Shown: positions 1 through 60,683 of the stretch, piece after piece
Position numbering within the stretch: position 1 is the first letter of the stretch
Layout of the letters: each line of letters starts with the position of its first letter
Source: Leptolyngbya boryana PCC 6306
GTDB taxonomy: Bacteria > Cyanobacteriota > Cyanobacteriia > Leptolyngbyales > Leptolyngbyaceae
DNA: 64,000 bases
Direction of reading: 5' to 3'
NCBI RefSeq assembly: GCF_000353285.1
Contig: NZ_KB731324.1
Span: 452,577-516,576, forward strand
Translations under genes and position numbers: made by a program
The notes under the pieces: generated by a model
Database searches by the model: none
The model's input: the letters and a program-made list of their open reading frames with translations, nothing else
What the model was told of the DNA's origin: nothing

Positions 1-528
1 CCGCTTCCGTCTGATGAGTTAACGGCTGATTTATACCGATTCGCACAACGCACGTTGACGAATGCGGGCTTTGAGCATTACGAAATTTCCAACTATGCGA
101 AACCGGGATATCAATGTCAACACAATCGCGTGTATTGGGAGAATCGATCGTTTTATGGCTTTGGCATGGGAGCAACCAGCTATTTGAATGGCGATCGGGT
201 TTCTCGCCCCCGCAAACTGAAAGAGTATTACGACTGGATTGGCACAGCACAATCTGAAGCCGAAGTAAGTCAAACTGATCTGATGTTAGATAGTTTGATG
301 GTTGGCTTACGGCTCAAAGAAGGCATTGATTTAGCACAGTTCAAAACCCAATTTGGAGAAGCTGCGATCGCTGAAATTGTGAAATGTTTAGCACCCTATC
401 AAACATCAAATTGGGTCGAAATCACAGCAGCAAGTATCCGACTCACTGATCCAGAAGGATTTCTATTTTCCAATGTTATTTTGACAACATTGTTCGCAGC
501 TTTTGAAGAAGATGAGTCTACTTTTTAG
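1..528 (+). CDS. hemW: Radical SAM heme chaperone HemW (3' part)
   Basis: The open frame enters from the left edge, so the N-terminal radical SAM part with its CxxxCxxC cluster is outside the window; about 175 codons remain. The fragment has the HemW/HemN-like C-terminal signature YEISNYAKPG followed by QHN and a GFGMGATSYL stretch, and ends with the usual winged-helix-like tail. The family (formerly called oxygen-independent coproporphyrinogen oxidase-like) delivers heme to target proteins rather than oxidising coproporphyrinogen; that role is family knowledge. Its last 11 bases overlap the 3' end of the convergent dps gene, so the two transcripts meet tail to tail. Confidence 0.87.
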   Translation, partial: PLPSDELTADLYRFAQRTLTNAGFEHYEISNYAKPGYQCQHNRVYWENRSFYGFGMGATSYLNGDRVSRPRKLKEYYDWIGTAQSEAEVSQTDLMLDSLMVGLRLKEGIDLAQFKTQFGEAAIAEIVKCLAPYQTSNWVEITAASIRLTDPEGFLFSNVILTTLFAAFEEDESTF

Positions 529-1084
529 ACTTTTTCTTACCGTTGGTTGCTTTTGTTTCTGCTGAACTTCCGTTAGTTGAAACTGGAGTTCCCTCAGCTT
601 GCAAATGTGCTTCTAGAAACCACAGACGTTTGTCGATCGCTCTTGAGATCTCAGTATATAAATCTGCTGTGTCTGCATCTCCGAGATCGTCTGTTTCCGA
701 AATCCCATCTCGTAATAGTTTTGCGTAGGGTGCATACCGATCTGCTAAAGCAGTCAGATGAGATTTTCCGTCAAAAATATCGATCGGATATTCGGGGATC
801 TCCGATGTCTGCGCTGCAAGCCTTGCAGTTCCAAGCGCTGTGCCACCCAGAGCAGTCACTCTTTCAGCGACCAGATCGATAAACTCTTCCAACTCAGATG
901 ACATTTCATCAAACAACTGATGAAGCTGATAGAAATCCATTCCCTTGACATTCCAGTGAGCCTGCTTCACTTGAGTCTTGAGATCAAGTGTATTTGCTAA
1001 GGTCTGATTCAAAATGTCGATAATTTGCGATCGAACATTCGCTGGAAGATCAATTCGCGTGAAATGAAGCGGAGTGCTACTCAT
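518..1084 (-). CDS. dps: Dps-family ferritin-like DNA-protection protein
   Basis: 188 residues. The dodecameric mini-ferritin oxidises and stores iron and protects DNA from peroxide. The intersubunit ferroxidase ligands are present with canonical spacing: His43, His55 and Asp59 from one chain, Asp70 and Glu74 from the other (motif AHWNVKG then DLVAER). The C-terminal tail (residues about 165-188) is rich in Ser/Asn and ends in Lys-rich KKKSKK; such basic tails bind DNA in other Dps proteins (inference here). The start is the ATG at 1082-1084. It lies convergent to hemW with an 11-base overlap. The 178 bases upstream, shared with the first adhesin gene, hold its promoter, but no PerR/Fur site was recognised. 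Confidence 0.92.
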   Translation of the reverse strand: MSSTPLHFTRIDLPANVRSQIIDILNQTLANTLDLKTQVKQAHWNVKGMDFYQLHQLFDEMSSELEEFIDLVAERVTALGGTALGTARLAAQTSEIPEYPIDIFDGKSHLTALADRYAPYAKLLRDGISETDDLGDADTADLYTEISRAIDKRLWFLEAHLQAEGTPVSTNGSSAETKATNGKKKSKK

Positions 1085-58685: not shown

Positions 58686-59486
58686 ATGACATTCAATGCT
58701 CAAACAGTGACATCCCTGAGTGATACCTTGATCAATTTGGCATCTCAAAATCTGCCGAAAGTGATTTGGGCGATCGTGATTCTACTGGTTACTCGTTGGA
58801 TCGCAGACGCTATTCGACCGATCGGATTTCGCATACTTAAATATGCAGAGCCAACCCTGCAAAAGTTCCTGATTCAAGTCGCATCGATTATGGTTTGGAT
58901 TGCGGGAACCGTTGCAGCTTTAAATGCAATCGGGATTCAAACGACAACCGTGATTACGATCATTGGTGCAGCAGGTTTAGCCATTGGTTTAGCTTTGCAA
59001 AATAGCTTGTCCCACTTTGCGGCAGGCGTGATGTTAGTTAGCTTTCGACCATTTGAAGTCGGAGACTCGATCGAAGGTGCAGGTGTCGCAGGCATGGTTG
59101 ATAGTATTGGATTGTTTTCGACGACGATCGTGTCGCCTGATAATGTCCGCATTACCGTGCCCAATAGCAATTTATTTAGTGGAACTCTGAAGAATAATAC
59201 GATTATGGGAACGCGGCGAGTCGATTTGCAGATTAATATTGGTCATCGCGAAATTGACTCGACCATGACGCATCTGTTATCGCTGGTACAACCTCATCCC
59301 CTCGTATTGCGCGAACCCCGTCCAACTTGTCACGTCGAGAGCATTACACCTGACGCAACAATTTTGTATTTACGTCCCTGGTGCGCTGCGATTCATCACG
59401 AACAAGTGCGATCGGAGATTTTACAACTCGTTCAAGAAGCACTTCAATCCATCCCCGCCAAACAAGCCGCCCAATCGGGTACTTGA
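58686..59486 (+). CDS. Small-conductance mechanosensitive channel (MscS family)
   Basis: 266 residues. Two or three membrane helices (VIWAIVILLVTRWIADAI, VASIMVWIAGTVAALNAIG) lead to the pore helix TTTVITIIGAAGLAIGLALQNSLSHFAAGVML, then the MscS beta domain (RPFEVGDSIEGAGVAGMVDSIGLFSTTI, VPNSNLFSGTLKN). It opens on membrane tension to release solutes in osmotic down-shock. A strong SD (AGAGGAGGT) lies nine bases before the ATG. Hairpin GAACCTAA/TTAGGGTTC (59488-59514) follows the stop, then the aroF leader. Confidence 0.94.
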   Translation: MTFNAQTVTSLSDTLINLASQNLPKVIWAIVILLVTRWIADAIRPIGFRILKYAEPTLQKFLIQVASIMVWIAGTVAALNAIGIQTTTVITIIGAAGLAIGLALQNSLSHFAAGVMLVSFRPFEVGDSIEGAGVAGMVDSIGLFSTTIVSPDNVRITVPNSNLFSGTLKNNTIMGTRRVDLQINIGHREIDSTMTHLLSLVQPHPLVLREPRPTCHVESITPDATILYLRPWCAAIHHEQVRSEILQLVQEALQSIPAKQAAQSGT

Positions 59487-59546
59487 CGAACCTAAGAAAG
59501 CTCTGTTAGGGTTCAAAGTAACAGATTTACAAGCCAACCTAGAGAA

Positions 59547-59609
59547 ATGCAACTCGGCACTTCCTACTTTTACTTTTTTTGGCGATCGGCGGTTCACCCG
59601 GCGAGGTAA
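59547..59609 (+). CDS. AroF leader peptide 1 (Tyr/Phe/Trp-rich, 20 residues)
   Basis: Open frame ATG to TAA encoding a 20-residue peptide with SYFYFFW in its middle (codons TAC TTT TAC TTT TTT TGG, 59565-59582), then RSAVHPAR. Six consecutive aromatic codons are far from random and are products of the pathway aroF starts. AGAGA precedes the ATG closely, so translation initiation is not strong by SD. The stop overlaps the 5' arm of an antiterminator hairpin (59589-59601). It fits a ribosome-stalling attenuator leader. No such peptide was found by similarity; the evidence is sequence design alone. Confidence 0.8.
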   Translation: MQLGTSYFYFFWRSAVHPAR

Positions 59610-59637
59610 ATCCTCATGAGTCCGTCCGGTGAACCGC
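59589..59637 (+). promoter_or_regulatory. Antiterminator hairpin of aroF attenuator 1
   Basis: GCGGTTCACC(C)GG (59589-59601) pairs with CCGGTGAACCGC (59626-59637), a 12-bp stem with one bulged C. Its 3' arm uses bases 59634-59637, which are also in the terminator stem, so the two are mutually exclusive. A ribosome at the leader stop (59607) would cover the 5' arm; one stalled at the aromatic codons would leave much of it free. Confidence 0.75.
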
Positions 59638-59660
59638 AGAGTAACATCTGCGGTTTTTTT
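59634..59660 (+). terminator. Rho-independent terminator of aroF attenuator 1
   Basis: Stem CCGCAGA/TCTGCGG (59634-59640 with 59647-59653), six-base loop, then seven T. It lies between leader peptide 1 and leader peptide 2. Confidence 0.88.
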
Positions 59661-59681
59661 ATTCTCAAAATCTTCTTTGCA

Positions 59682-59744
59682 ATGACTTATCTCACTTCCT
59701 GGTTTTACGGTTTTTACTTTTTTACCCGCAGGCGCTCTGGGTAA
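59682..59744 (+). CDS. AroF leader peptide 2 (Trp/Tyr/Phe-rich, 20 residues)
   Basis: Second 20-codon frame with the same length and plan: an N-terminal MTYLTS, then WFYGFYFF (Trp, Phe, Tyr, Gly, Phe, Tyr, Phe, Phe; 59700-59723), then TRRRSG and TAA at 59742-59744. Seven of eight residues in the core are aromatic. Both leaders share the DNA pattern ACTTCCT followed by TTTTAC and a T run, so they likely arose by tandem duplication. The last codons lie in the antiterminator arm 59734-59742. No SD is obvious. Its own terminator follows at 59766-59799. Confidence 0.8.
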   Translation: MTYLTSWFYGFYFFTRRRSG

Positions 59745-59775
59745 GTCATTTGCATGTGTGATTGCAACCCGGAGC
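59734..59775 (+). promoter_or_regulatory. Antiterminator pairing of aroF attenuator 2
   Basis: GCTCTGGGT (59734-59742), within the last codons of leader 2, can pair with ACCCGGAGC (59767-59775; nine pairs, one G-U). That is the 5' arm of terminator 2, so the structures exclude each other. The arrangement mirrors attenuator 1. Confidence 0.7.
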
Positions 59776-59799
59776 CTCAAATCAGGTTCCGGGTTTTTT
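59766..59799 (+). terminator. Rho-independent terminator of aroF attenuator 2
   Basis: Stem AACCCGGA/TCCGGGTT (59766-59773 with 59788-59795), extended inside by CCT/AGG and followed by a run of T to 59799. It ends 38 bases before the aroF start, so it would stop transcription before the gene. Confidence 0.88.
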
Positions 59800-59837
59800 G
59801 TTTGAAGTTCACGAAACCAATTTAAGGAGTTCATTCC

Positions 59838-60683
59838 ATGAAAGACGCTAGATTAGTCCGCAAAACTGAGTCCACTTCCAACTCAATCGTGTCTCTGTCA
59901 AATAGTGTTGCCATTGGCGGCGAAGCGATCGTGATTATTGGTGGCCCTTGTGCCGTCGAGAGTTTGGAACAGATGGAAACGATCGCACGGGAATTAAAAT
60001 CGGCTCCGATTCAAGCATTACGGGGAGGTGTGTACAAGCCACGCACTTCCCCTTATTCTTTCCAGGGTTCTGGTTTAGCTGGACTGGAAATCTTAGCAAC
60101 CGTTCGTCAGCGCTATGATTTGCCGGTCGTCACAGAAGTCATGGCAATTTCTCAAATTGAAGAGATCGCTCAATATGCTGACATGCTGCAAGTGGGCAGC
60201 CGGAATATGCAGAATTTCGATTTGCTCAAGGCTTTGGGACAGACGGATAAGCCGATTCTCCTGAAGCGAGGACTCGCAGCAACGATCGAAGAATTCGTGA
60301 TGGCAGCCGAGTACATCATGAGCCACGGCAATCCGAATGTCGTGCTGTGTGAGCGAGGAATTCGCAGCTTCGATAACTACACCCGCAATGTTTTGGATTT
60401 GGGTGCTGTAGCTGCGTTGAAGCAAATTACGCATTTACCTGTGATTGTTGATCCGAGCCATGCGGCAGGTCGGCGAGAATTGATTGCAGATTTGTCGAGA
60501 GCCGCGATCGCGTGTGGAGCAGATGGATTAATCATTGAGTGTCATCCCGAACCTGATCAATCGGTTTCAGATGCACAACAGGCTTTGTCGATCGAGAGCA
60601 TGATGCAGTTGGTGCAAAGTGTGCAGCCTGTGGCAAAAGCAGTGGGTCGAACCGTCTATGAAGGATGTTTCGCGATCGCTTAG
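59838..60683 (+). CDS. aroF: 3-deoxy-7-phosphoheptulonate synthase (DAHP synthase, type I-beta)
   Basis: 281 residues. It condenses PEP with erythrose 4-phosphate, first step of aromatic amino-acid synthesis. Active-site regions are clear: GGPCAVES, ALRGGVYKPRTSPYSFQG, LQVGSRNMQNFDLL, PILLKRG, PVIVDPSHAAGRR and EC-H-PEPDQSVSDAQQ. It has only a short N-terminal tail of about 28 residues before the barrel, so the ferredoxin-like or chorismate-mutase domains that give feedback inhibition in other type I-beta enzymes are missing. Regulation may therefore rest on the two attenuators upstream. SD AAGGAG precedes the ATG. Confidence 0.96.
   Translation: MKDARLVRKTESTSNSIVSLSNSVAIGGEAIVIIGGPCAVESLEQMETIARELKSAPIQALRGGVYKPRTSPYSFQGSGLAGLEILATVRQRYDLPVVTEVMAISQIEEIAQYADMLQVGSRNMQNFDLLKALGQTDKPILLKRGLAATIEEFVMAAEYIMSHGNPNVVLCERGIRSFDNYTRNVLDLGAVAALKQITHLPVIVDPSHAAGRRELIADLSRAAIACGADGLIIECHPEPDQSVSDAQQALSIESMMQLVQSVQPVAKAVGRTVYEGCFAIA

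Follow-up and report, generated by a model that had tools for sequence, protein, structure and literature searches.

How might a cell restrain a DAHP synthase that has no regulatory domain of its own? The aroF gene of Leptolyngbya boryana PCC 6306 raises this question. It encodes such an enzyme and, in the 64,000-nucleotide stretch of DNA that we analysed (hereafter the window), it is preceded by two short reading frames rich in aromatic codons, each with an intrinsic terminator behind it (Table 1). The phe operons of Escherichia coli are controlled by ribosome-mediated attenuators of the trp type, and control of this kind requires close coupling of transcription and translation. The E. coli trp attenuator is likewise ribosome-mediated, as set out in PMC3641672. 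An article from 2016 describes reliable data on attenuation in cyanobacteria as lacking (PMC4833913).

We conclude that the region is, with high probability, a tandem ribosome-mediated transcription attenuator controlling this DAHP synthase. Every feature that can be tested in sequence fits ribosome-mediated attenuation, with weaker support for module 2 (the downstream leader and its terminator) than for module 1. The anatomy, conservation, covariation, ribosome-position geometry and promoter-like element were obtained by computation; we infer in addition that the leaders are translated, that they sense charged tRNA, that two steps give a combined or steeper response, and that the modules have the in-cell default states proposed below. 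An original prediction, made from this DNA alone, had put forward the two leaders and their alternate pairings; the start-hiding helix, the promoter-like element, the single-leader relatives and the split between DAHP synthase isozymes described here go beyond it.

Under the proposed mechanism, transcription would start at about 59519 and then cross two separate modules, in each of which a ribosome would translate a leader with many Phe, Tyr and Trp codons. With ample charged aromatic tRNA, the ribosome would reach the stop codon and cover the 5' strand of the antiterminator, the terminator would form, and transcription would end at about 59660 (module 1) or 59799 (module 2). A ribosome stalled at the aromatic codons would instead allow the leader tail to pair with the 5' arm of the terminator, and RNA polymerase would continue. 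aroF would be transcribed only if both modules permitted passage.

Table 1. Predicted features upstream of aroF in L. boryana PCC 6306, in window positions
Feature	Position	Strand	Sequence or basis
Predicted promoter	59483..59512	+	TTGACG 59483-59488, 18-nt spacer, extended -10 TGT-TAGGGT 59504-59512
Leader peptide 1	59547..59609	+	20 codons, MQLGTSYFYFFWRSAVHPAR
Antiterminator 1, 5' strand	59589..59598	+	GCGGTTCACC, within the leader 1 tail
Antiterminator 1, 3' strand	59628..59637	+	GGTGAACCGC, overlaps the 5' arm of terminator 1
Intrinsic terminator 1 with T tail	59631..59660	+	Terminator scan, folding
P0 (start-hiding helix of leader 2), 5' strand	59678..59689	+	Includes the leader 2 ATG; partner 59742-59754
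Leader peptide 2	59682..59744	+	20 codons, MTYLTSWFYGFYFFTRRRSG
Antiterminator 2, 5' strand	59734..59742	+	GCTCTGGGT, ends at the first base of the leader 2 stop codon
P0 helix, 3' strand	59742..59754	+	Adjoins the end of antiterminator 2
Antiterminator 2, 3' strand	59767..59775	+	ACCCGGAGC, within the 5' arm of terminator 2
Intrinsic terminator 2 with T tail	59766..59799	+	Terminator scan, folding
Likely aroF ribosome binding site	59824..59829	+	AAGGAG, read from sequence
aroF, 281-aa DAHP synthase without ferredoxin-like regulatory domain	59838..60683	+	Profile matches

Both leaders are conserved upstream of aroF

We assembled aroF loci from a scan of named genomes, which gave 80 loci, and from 386 genomes drawn from the phylum. 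Among the latter, 321 had matches of 1e-30 or better; a close orthologue (at least 70% identity) was present in 38 of the 321, and the weaker matches listed had 45–58% identity. The first round comprised 119 loci with at least 68% identity, including the window and its duplicate; dropping the window's own copy (L082) left 118. Leaders were assigned by a regular expression at 95 of the 119 loci and by hand from the reading frames at 16 more, making 110 once L082 was dropped. Both leaders, each followed by a terminator, were thus present at 110 of the 118 loci, the window included. A second round, same order, covered 26 of 30 new matching genomes, the remaining four having no locus, and all 26 new loci (L132–L157) carried both leaders; leader 1 of one of them, L144, has only four aromatic residues in nine. 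Named carriers include Nostoc, Calothrix, Anabaena, Tolypothrix, Brasilonema, Leptolyngbya, Stenomitos and Trichocoleus.

Within the oxygenic class, three of the 118 first-round loci have a single leader, of type 2 in L032 and L116 and of type 1 in L111, and are natural cases of each module alone. At four others (L019, L027, L067 and L071) the contig ends no more than 102 nt upstream of aroF. L119 holds the 3' part of an aroF that is split, with the two leaders upstream of the 5' part. In genome G382, aroF is broken near codon 72, with pieces at L201 1824-2498 (-) and L202 about 159-632 (-), and retains both leaders upstream; the insert, which we estimate at 5.8 kb, includes a frame of 339 aa at L201 6943-7962 that carries the phage-integrase domain PF00589. 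This insert is reminiscent of the excisable elements of heterocyst formers.

The two 20-codon aromatic frames of the original prediction were confirmed in both coordinates and sequence, and each holds Phe, Tyr and Trp codons in the window. Among 2,363 start–stop pairs of 10–30 codons on the two strands of the window (1,119 + 1,244, nested starts counted separately), two have at least six aromatic residues in nine; in each case a terminator with a folding energy of -10 kcal/mol or lower lies no more than 90 nt downstream. The regions flanking 135 loci (1,037,278 strand-bases, window excluded) gave 17,387 such pairs, of which 42 were equally dense in aromatic residues, and none of the 42 had such a terminator. 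Elsewhere in the L. boryana genome, three PF00425 matches and one PF00800 match mark further aromatic genes; short gene-strand frames near them reached at most four aromatic residues in nine, aromatic density being all that was scored.

Conservation of the frames among relatives had been set as a check on the prediction, and the frames are kept, as in SYFYFWFRVVHRE for leader 1 and MTYFSSWFYGFYFWPRASSG for leader 2. We took 74 representatives, namely loci less than 90% alike, with some loci being one species from two collections. The densest nine residues include all three aromatic amino acids in 61 of the 74 for leader 1 and in 71 of the 74 for leader 2. Phe and Tyr interchange within the cores, the N-terminal parts of the peptides vary, and conservation extends past the aromatic core, e.g. 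VVHRE and PRASSG. Tyr positions of the cores use both TAC and TAT in alignments of 50 sequences. In at least four loci (L022, L028, L089 and L038) the leader 2 frame reaches into or beyond the terminator.

The terminators might instead be under some other control, by a protein or a ligand, or under none, with the frames being small-protein genes or by-products of T-rich DNA, which readily yields Phe codons. We consider this highly improbable. The Trp codon TGG, counted from the alignments without selecting for the residue, is kept in 48 of 50 sequences at the end of core 1 and in 41 and 43 of 50 at the two Trp positions of core 2. The absence of a terminator behind all 42 aromatic-dense flank frames also speaks against it, as does the fixed position of the antiterminator relative to the stop codon, which is most exact in module 2 (see below).

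Terminators and competing antiterminators are conserved in both modules

Two Rho-independent terminators had been predicted, and a terminator scan of the window found two on the + strand here, at 59631-59656 and 59766-59795 plus their T tails, with folding energies of -15.9 kcal/mol for terminator 1 and -21.1 kcal/mol for terminator 2. The alternate pairings proposed between each leader end and the 5' arm of its terminator were recovered by a helix search in both modules. In module 1 the search returned a helix of 10 pairs; the wider pairing of the prediction (59589-59601 with 59626-59637) is the same helix with extra pairs beyond a bulge. In module 2 the pairing was found at the predicted positions. 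The arrangement is that of the trp type: an intrinsic terminator lies between leader and biosynthetic gene, and an antiterminator whose 5' strand is at the leader end excludes that terminator, the support for the latter being weaker in module 2.

Every leader copy is followed by a terminator (110 of 110 for each module), with median energies of -17.7 kcal/mol in module 1 and -17.3 kcal/mol in module 2. Relative to dinucleotide shuffles, the antiterminator duplex had z below -2 in 109 of 110 loci for module 1 and in 80 of 110 for module 2, where 16 of 110 had z above -1.

Covariation was assessed for each module in an alignment of 50 representatives, thinned by hand from the 74; that of module 2 omits 24 representatives, including L004, L022, L038 and L055, which have long or odd leader 2 frames. 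For antiterminator 1, 91.5% of cells were paired, with two-sided changes at 7 of 13 pairs, and its top hairpin was paired in 70.4% of cells with two-sided changes at all 6 pairs. The corresponding values were 98.0% and 4 of 9 pairs for terminator 1, 85.1% and 4 of 11 for antiterminator 2, and 96.0% and 4 of 9 for terminator 2. In all four tests none of 500 shuffles reached the real percentage paired or covariation score, a result that is not a probability because the shuffles ignore relatedness; structures slid along the alignment scored lower. Two measures were no better than shuffled: for antiterminator 2, 342 and 357 of 500 shuffles reached the two-sided pair count and the pair types, respectively, and for terminator 1, 247 of 500 equalled the pair types. 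Compensatory changes in the alternate stems, which the original prediction had named as a check, are therefore present, with weaker support for antiterminator 2.

One base of a 5' arm is shared by both folds and is G rather than A in 10 of 50 sequences. Its terminator partner is then C in all 10, and its antiterminator partner is C in two of them, a G-U pair being kept in the other eight. The terminator 1 stem (59631-59656 in the window, and its counterparts in relatives) is nearly invariant across the class, 4 of its 9 pairs showing no change in 50 sequences.

Ribosome position is predicted to switch the fold

The original prediction held that stalling at aromatic codons would favour read-through. 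We modelled this by masking 27 nt as the ribosome and cutting the transcript ahead of the 3' arm of the terminator, using all 74 representatives for module 1 and, after omission of leader 2 frames longer than 28 codons, 71 of the 74 for module 2 (geometry and folding). The expected switch was seen. When the A site held the first aromatic codon, the median antiterminator probability was 0.99 in both modules, exceeding 0.5 in 73 of 74 representatives for module 1 and in 62 of 71 for module 2, where it was below 0.1 in 8 of 71. When it held the last one, the median was 0.59 for module 1 and 0.90 for module 2, the latter being above 0.5 in 47 of 71 and below 0.1 in 18 of 71. With the ribosome at the stop codon, the median fell to 0.00, and the probability was below 0.1 in 74 of 74 (module 1) and 70 of 71 (module 2). 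The module 1 switch failed in one of 74. In silico, then, the ribosome frees the antiterminator at the control codons and covers it at the stop codon, as in the trp type.

The underlying geometry is most regular in module 2: for 53 of 71 representatives, the base on which the 5' strand of the antiterminator ends is also the one that opens the stop codon. This strand most often begins 12 nt after the start of the last aromatic codon (19 of 71). In module 1 the commonest end is 3 nt ahead of the first base of the stop codon (31 of 74).

The same RNA switch could in principle be thrown by nascent-peptide arrest, for which TnaC is the example: stalling would be caused by the nascent peptide inside the exit tunnel acting with a small molecule, and tRNA charging would not be what is sensed. 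We regard this as very unlikely. It would fit with the conservation of the peptides past the aromatic core; however, these conserved tails are the antiterminator strand and covary with its partner, the core tolerates Phe/Tyr swaps, and the beginnings of the peptides vary. In the folding model, moreover, a stall at the first or a middle aromatic codon also works.

A predicted helix that would hide the start of leader 2 suggests different default states

In the window, the ATG of leader 2 is predicted to pair, with a probability of 0.99, with the stretch from its own stop codon onward. Across representatives the median probability of this start codon–stop region pairing (the P0 helix) was 0.82, and it exceeded 0.5 in 42 of 71. 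Only 35 of the 71 duplexes had z below -2, and z was above 0 for 13 of them. The P0 strands diverge widely among lineages yet still pair, for instance in L026 and L117. We sought an equivalent start-hiding helix in module 1 and did not find one: the duplex z was below -2 in 3 of 74 representatives, and the median probability that the leader 1 ATG pairs with the stretch from its stop codon onward was 0.00, exceeding 0.5 in 4 of 74.

P0 and antiterminator 2 are mutually incompatible unless they form a pseudoknot. Because P0 hides the start codon and excludes antiterminator 2, module 2 may terminate when no ribosome is present. In truncated transcripts folded without a ribosome, antiterminator 2 had a probability above 0.5 in 40 of 71 representatives (0.94 in the window); since it so often wins, default termination at module 2 would rest on P0 folding first. 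Module 1 should read through without a ribosome, as no competitor of antiterminator 1 was found. Together, these predictions suggest that the two modules may have opposite default states, depending on the order of folding.

A single promoter-like element precedes both modules

Of the 74 representatives, 71 had the pattern TTGAC-N14-20-TGnTAnnnT in the 130 nt ahead of leader 1, compared with 7 of 4,508 background windows; the pattern was read from alignments and then counted on the 74 representatives, so that these are partly the same sequences. It was found between the leaders in 0 of 74 representatives and between leader 2 and aroF in 0 of 74. Because the pattern lies only upstream of leader 1, both modules should share one transcript, and the start expected from the element in the window is the one given above. 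A promoter downstream of 59799 would have spoken against the original prediction; no copy of this pattern was found between leader 2 and aroF, and the promoter-like element lies ahead of leader 1. A generic sigma-70 scan did not list the predicted promoter at 59483-59512. Counting TATAAT alone gave 20 of 74 and carried little information. A Shine–Dalgarno-like motif precedes aroF in 68 of 74 representatives, leader 2 in 18 and leader 1 in 2.

Comparison with known systems

No part of the window matched a family in Rfam 15 at its gathering score; for 59487-59840 the best hit scored 20 bits, its gathering score being 70. Like an attenuator of the E. coli trp type, the region has codons for the end product in its leaders, and stalling would favour read-through into biosynthetic genes. 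It differs in having two full modules in series, mostly with all three aromatic amino acids, ahead of the first enzyme of the common pathway, and in its cyanobacterial host and lack of an Rfam match.

Salmonella mgtCBR, as described in PMC3641672, also has two short leader frames in one 5' region that both act on downstream transcription; there, however, the two leaders answer two signals (ATP and proline) through stem-loops unlike intrinsic terminators. Here the same class of codons is used twice, both times with an intrinsic terminator, and the region is thus not of the mgtCBR type. The uORFC-13-1 motif, according to PMC8632094, lies upstream of aroF in Acholeplasma and environmental sequences (24 representatives) and resembles each module in having a short frame with one or more Phe codons by a terminator ahead of a DAHP synthase gene. 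As presented there it has a single frame and is not tandem, whereas there are two here. The tandem riboswitches of Bacillus clausii metE, as mentioned in PMC3641672, share with this region two terminator-type control elements in series in one leader.

The original prediction knew of no described cyanobacterial case with two such attenuators in tandem, and we found none in searches of open-licence papers. The principle is known; for the arrangement and the lineage those searches returned no precedent, the nearest cases being mgtCBR and uORFC-13-1. If our reading is true, a conserved tandem attenuator would be a ready reporter of transcription–translation coupling in cyanobacteria and a natural two-stage switch using the same type of sensor twice, and it would explain how a DAHP synthase without a regulatory domain is restrained. 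It may be of use in engineering cyanobacteria for aromatic products.

The tandem belongs to a short isozyme, and a single attenuator is probably older

The ferredoxin-like domain mediates feedback inhibition in the Thermotoga DAHP synthase. The aroF product in the window matches PF00793 and TIGR01361 above their cut-offs and has no match to PF18152, the ferredoxin-like domain; the nearest solved chains include 1zco (262 residues) and 3pg8 (272 residues). The other DAHP synthase of the same genome (353 aa, L120) has both PF00793 and PF18152, and we found no aromatic-dense leader upstream of it. A further match is present in 36 of the 38 genomes with the short type. Because the short isozyme lacks the PF18152 domain, attenuation may replace allostery in it, and we propose, from sequence, that it stands in for this missing control.

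Among 12 more distant copies (L120–L131), only L124 has an aromatic leader. This is also the locus of genome G343 itself, a member of a different class within the phylum. Among 18 genomes from the order that contains G343, 9 matched, giving 14 copies, 11 short and 3 long. Eight of the 11 short copies have one aromatic-dense leader with a terminator. In addition, L209 has a Trp-rich leader with a terminator (seen by eye, then by script), and L212 and L214, both short, have neither leader nor terminator. The terminator of L213 was read by eye, its loop being longer than the scan permits. None of the three long copies has a leader with a terminator, and L218 shows one aromatic-dense frame. Antiterminator z in this class was below -2 in 3 of 9 copies under a first definition of the leader tail and in 8 of 9 under a second, in which the tail starts at the end of the aromatic cluster and the 5' arm is longer. 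The motif (A/G)ACCGCnG, similar to the terminator 1 stem of the tandem, is present in the 5' arm of 7 of 9 leader-bearing copies of this class, as read by eye. Because single modules stand before short aroF in another class, the single attenuator is probably older than the tandem.

We ran models of both modules on 146 genomes of the phylum, scoring about 20 candidates per genome. The module 1 model matched in 23 genomes, with 19 strong matches (E 1.1e-11 or better), 18 of them at short-type aroF and one at a decayed aroF (genome G030). The module 2 model matched in 98 genomes; its 18 strong matches (E 1e-17 or better) were without exception at aroF, and the one after these had 5.6e-5. In G030 (L198 about 1805-2156, -), leader 1 persists before the decayed aroF remnant, and neither the 3' arm of terminator 1 nor module 2 was seen at this locus. 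The modules could also, or mainly, yield two short terminated RNAs that act in trans, which would be compatible with attenuation and in keeping with how little the terminator 1 stem varies. The confinement of strong matches in the 146 genomes to short-type aroF, and once to its decayed form, argues against such a role, and we consider it the least probable of the alternatives.

Attenuation in cis remains our preferred reading of both modules, and their resemblance is suggestive of an origin by duplication: the module 2 model gave weak matches at module 1 of G125, G068 and G116. In five of the single modules from the other class it also gave matches with E no worse than 0.0031, the module 1 model reaching 0.01 at best. 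More tentatively, and as a combination that we hold to be possible rather than probable, the tandem may act as a logic gate: module 1 would pass polymerase unless its leader is fully translated, module 2 would stop it unless a ribosome is present and stalled, and aroF would then respond to starvation for aromatic amino acids but not to translation being blocked in general. On this proposal an earlier single attenuator would have given rise to the gate within the oxygenic cyanobacteria, serving an isozyme that lacks allosteric feedback.

In genome G426, two short copies differ in their leaders, which are Trp-rich (WTWW) in one and Phe/Tyr-rich (YFYYFFY) in the other (L209 and L215, respectively), as if each copy answered its own amino acids.
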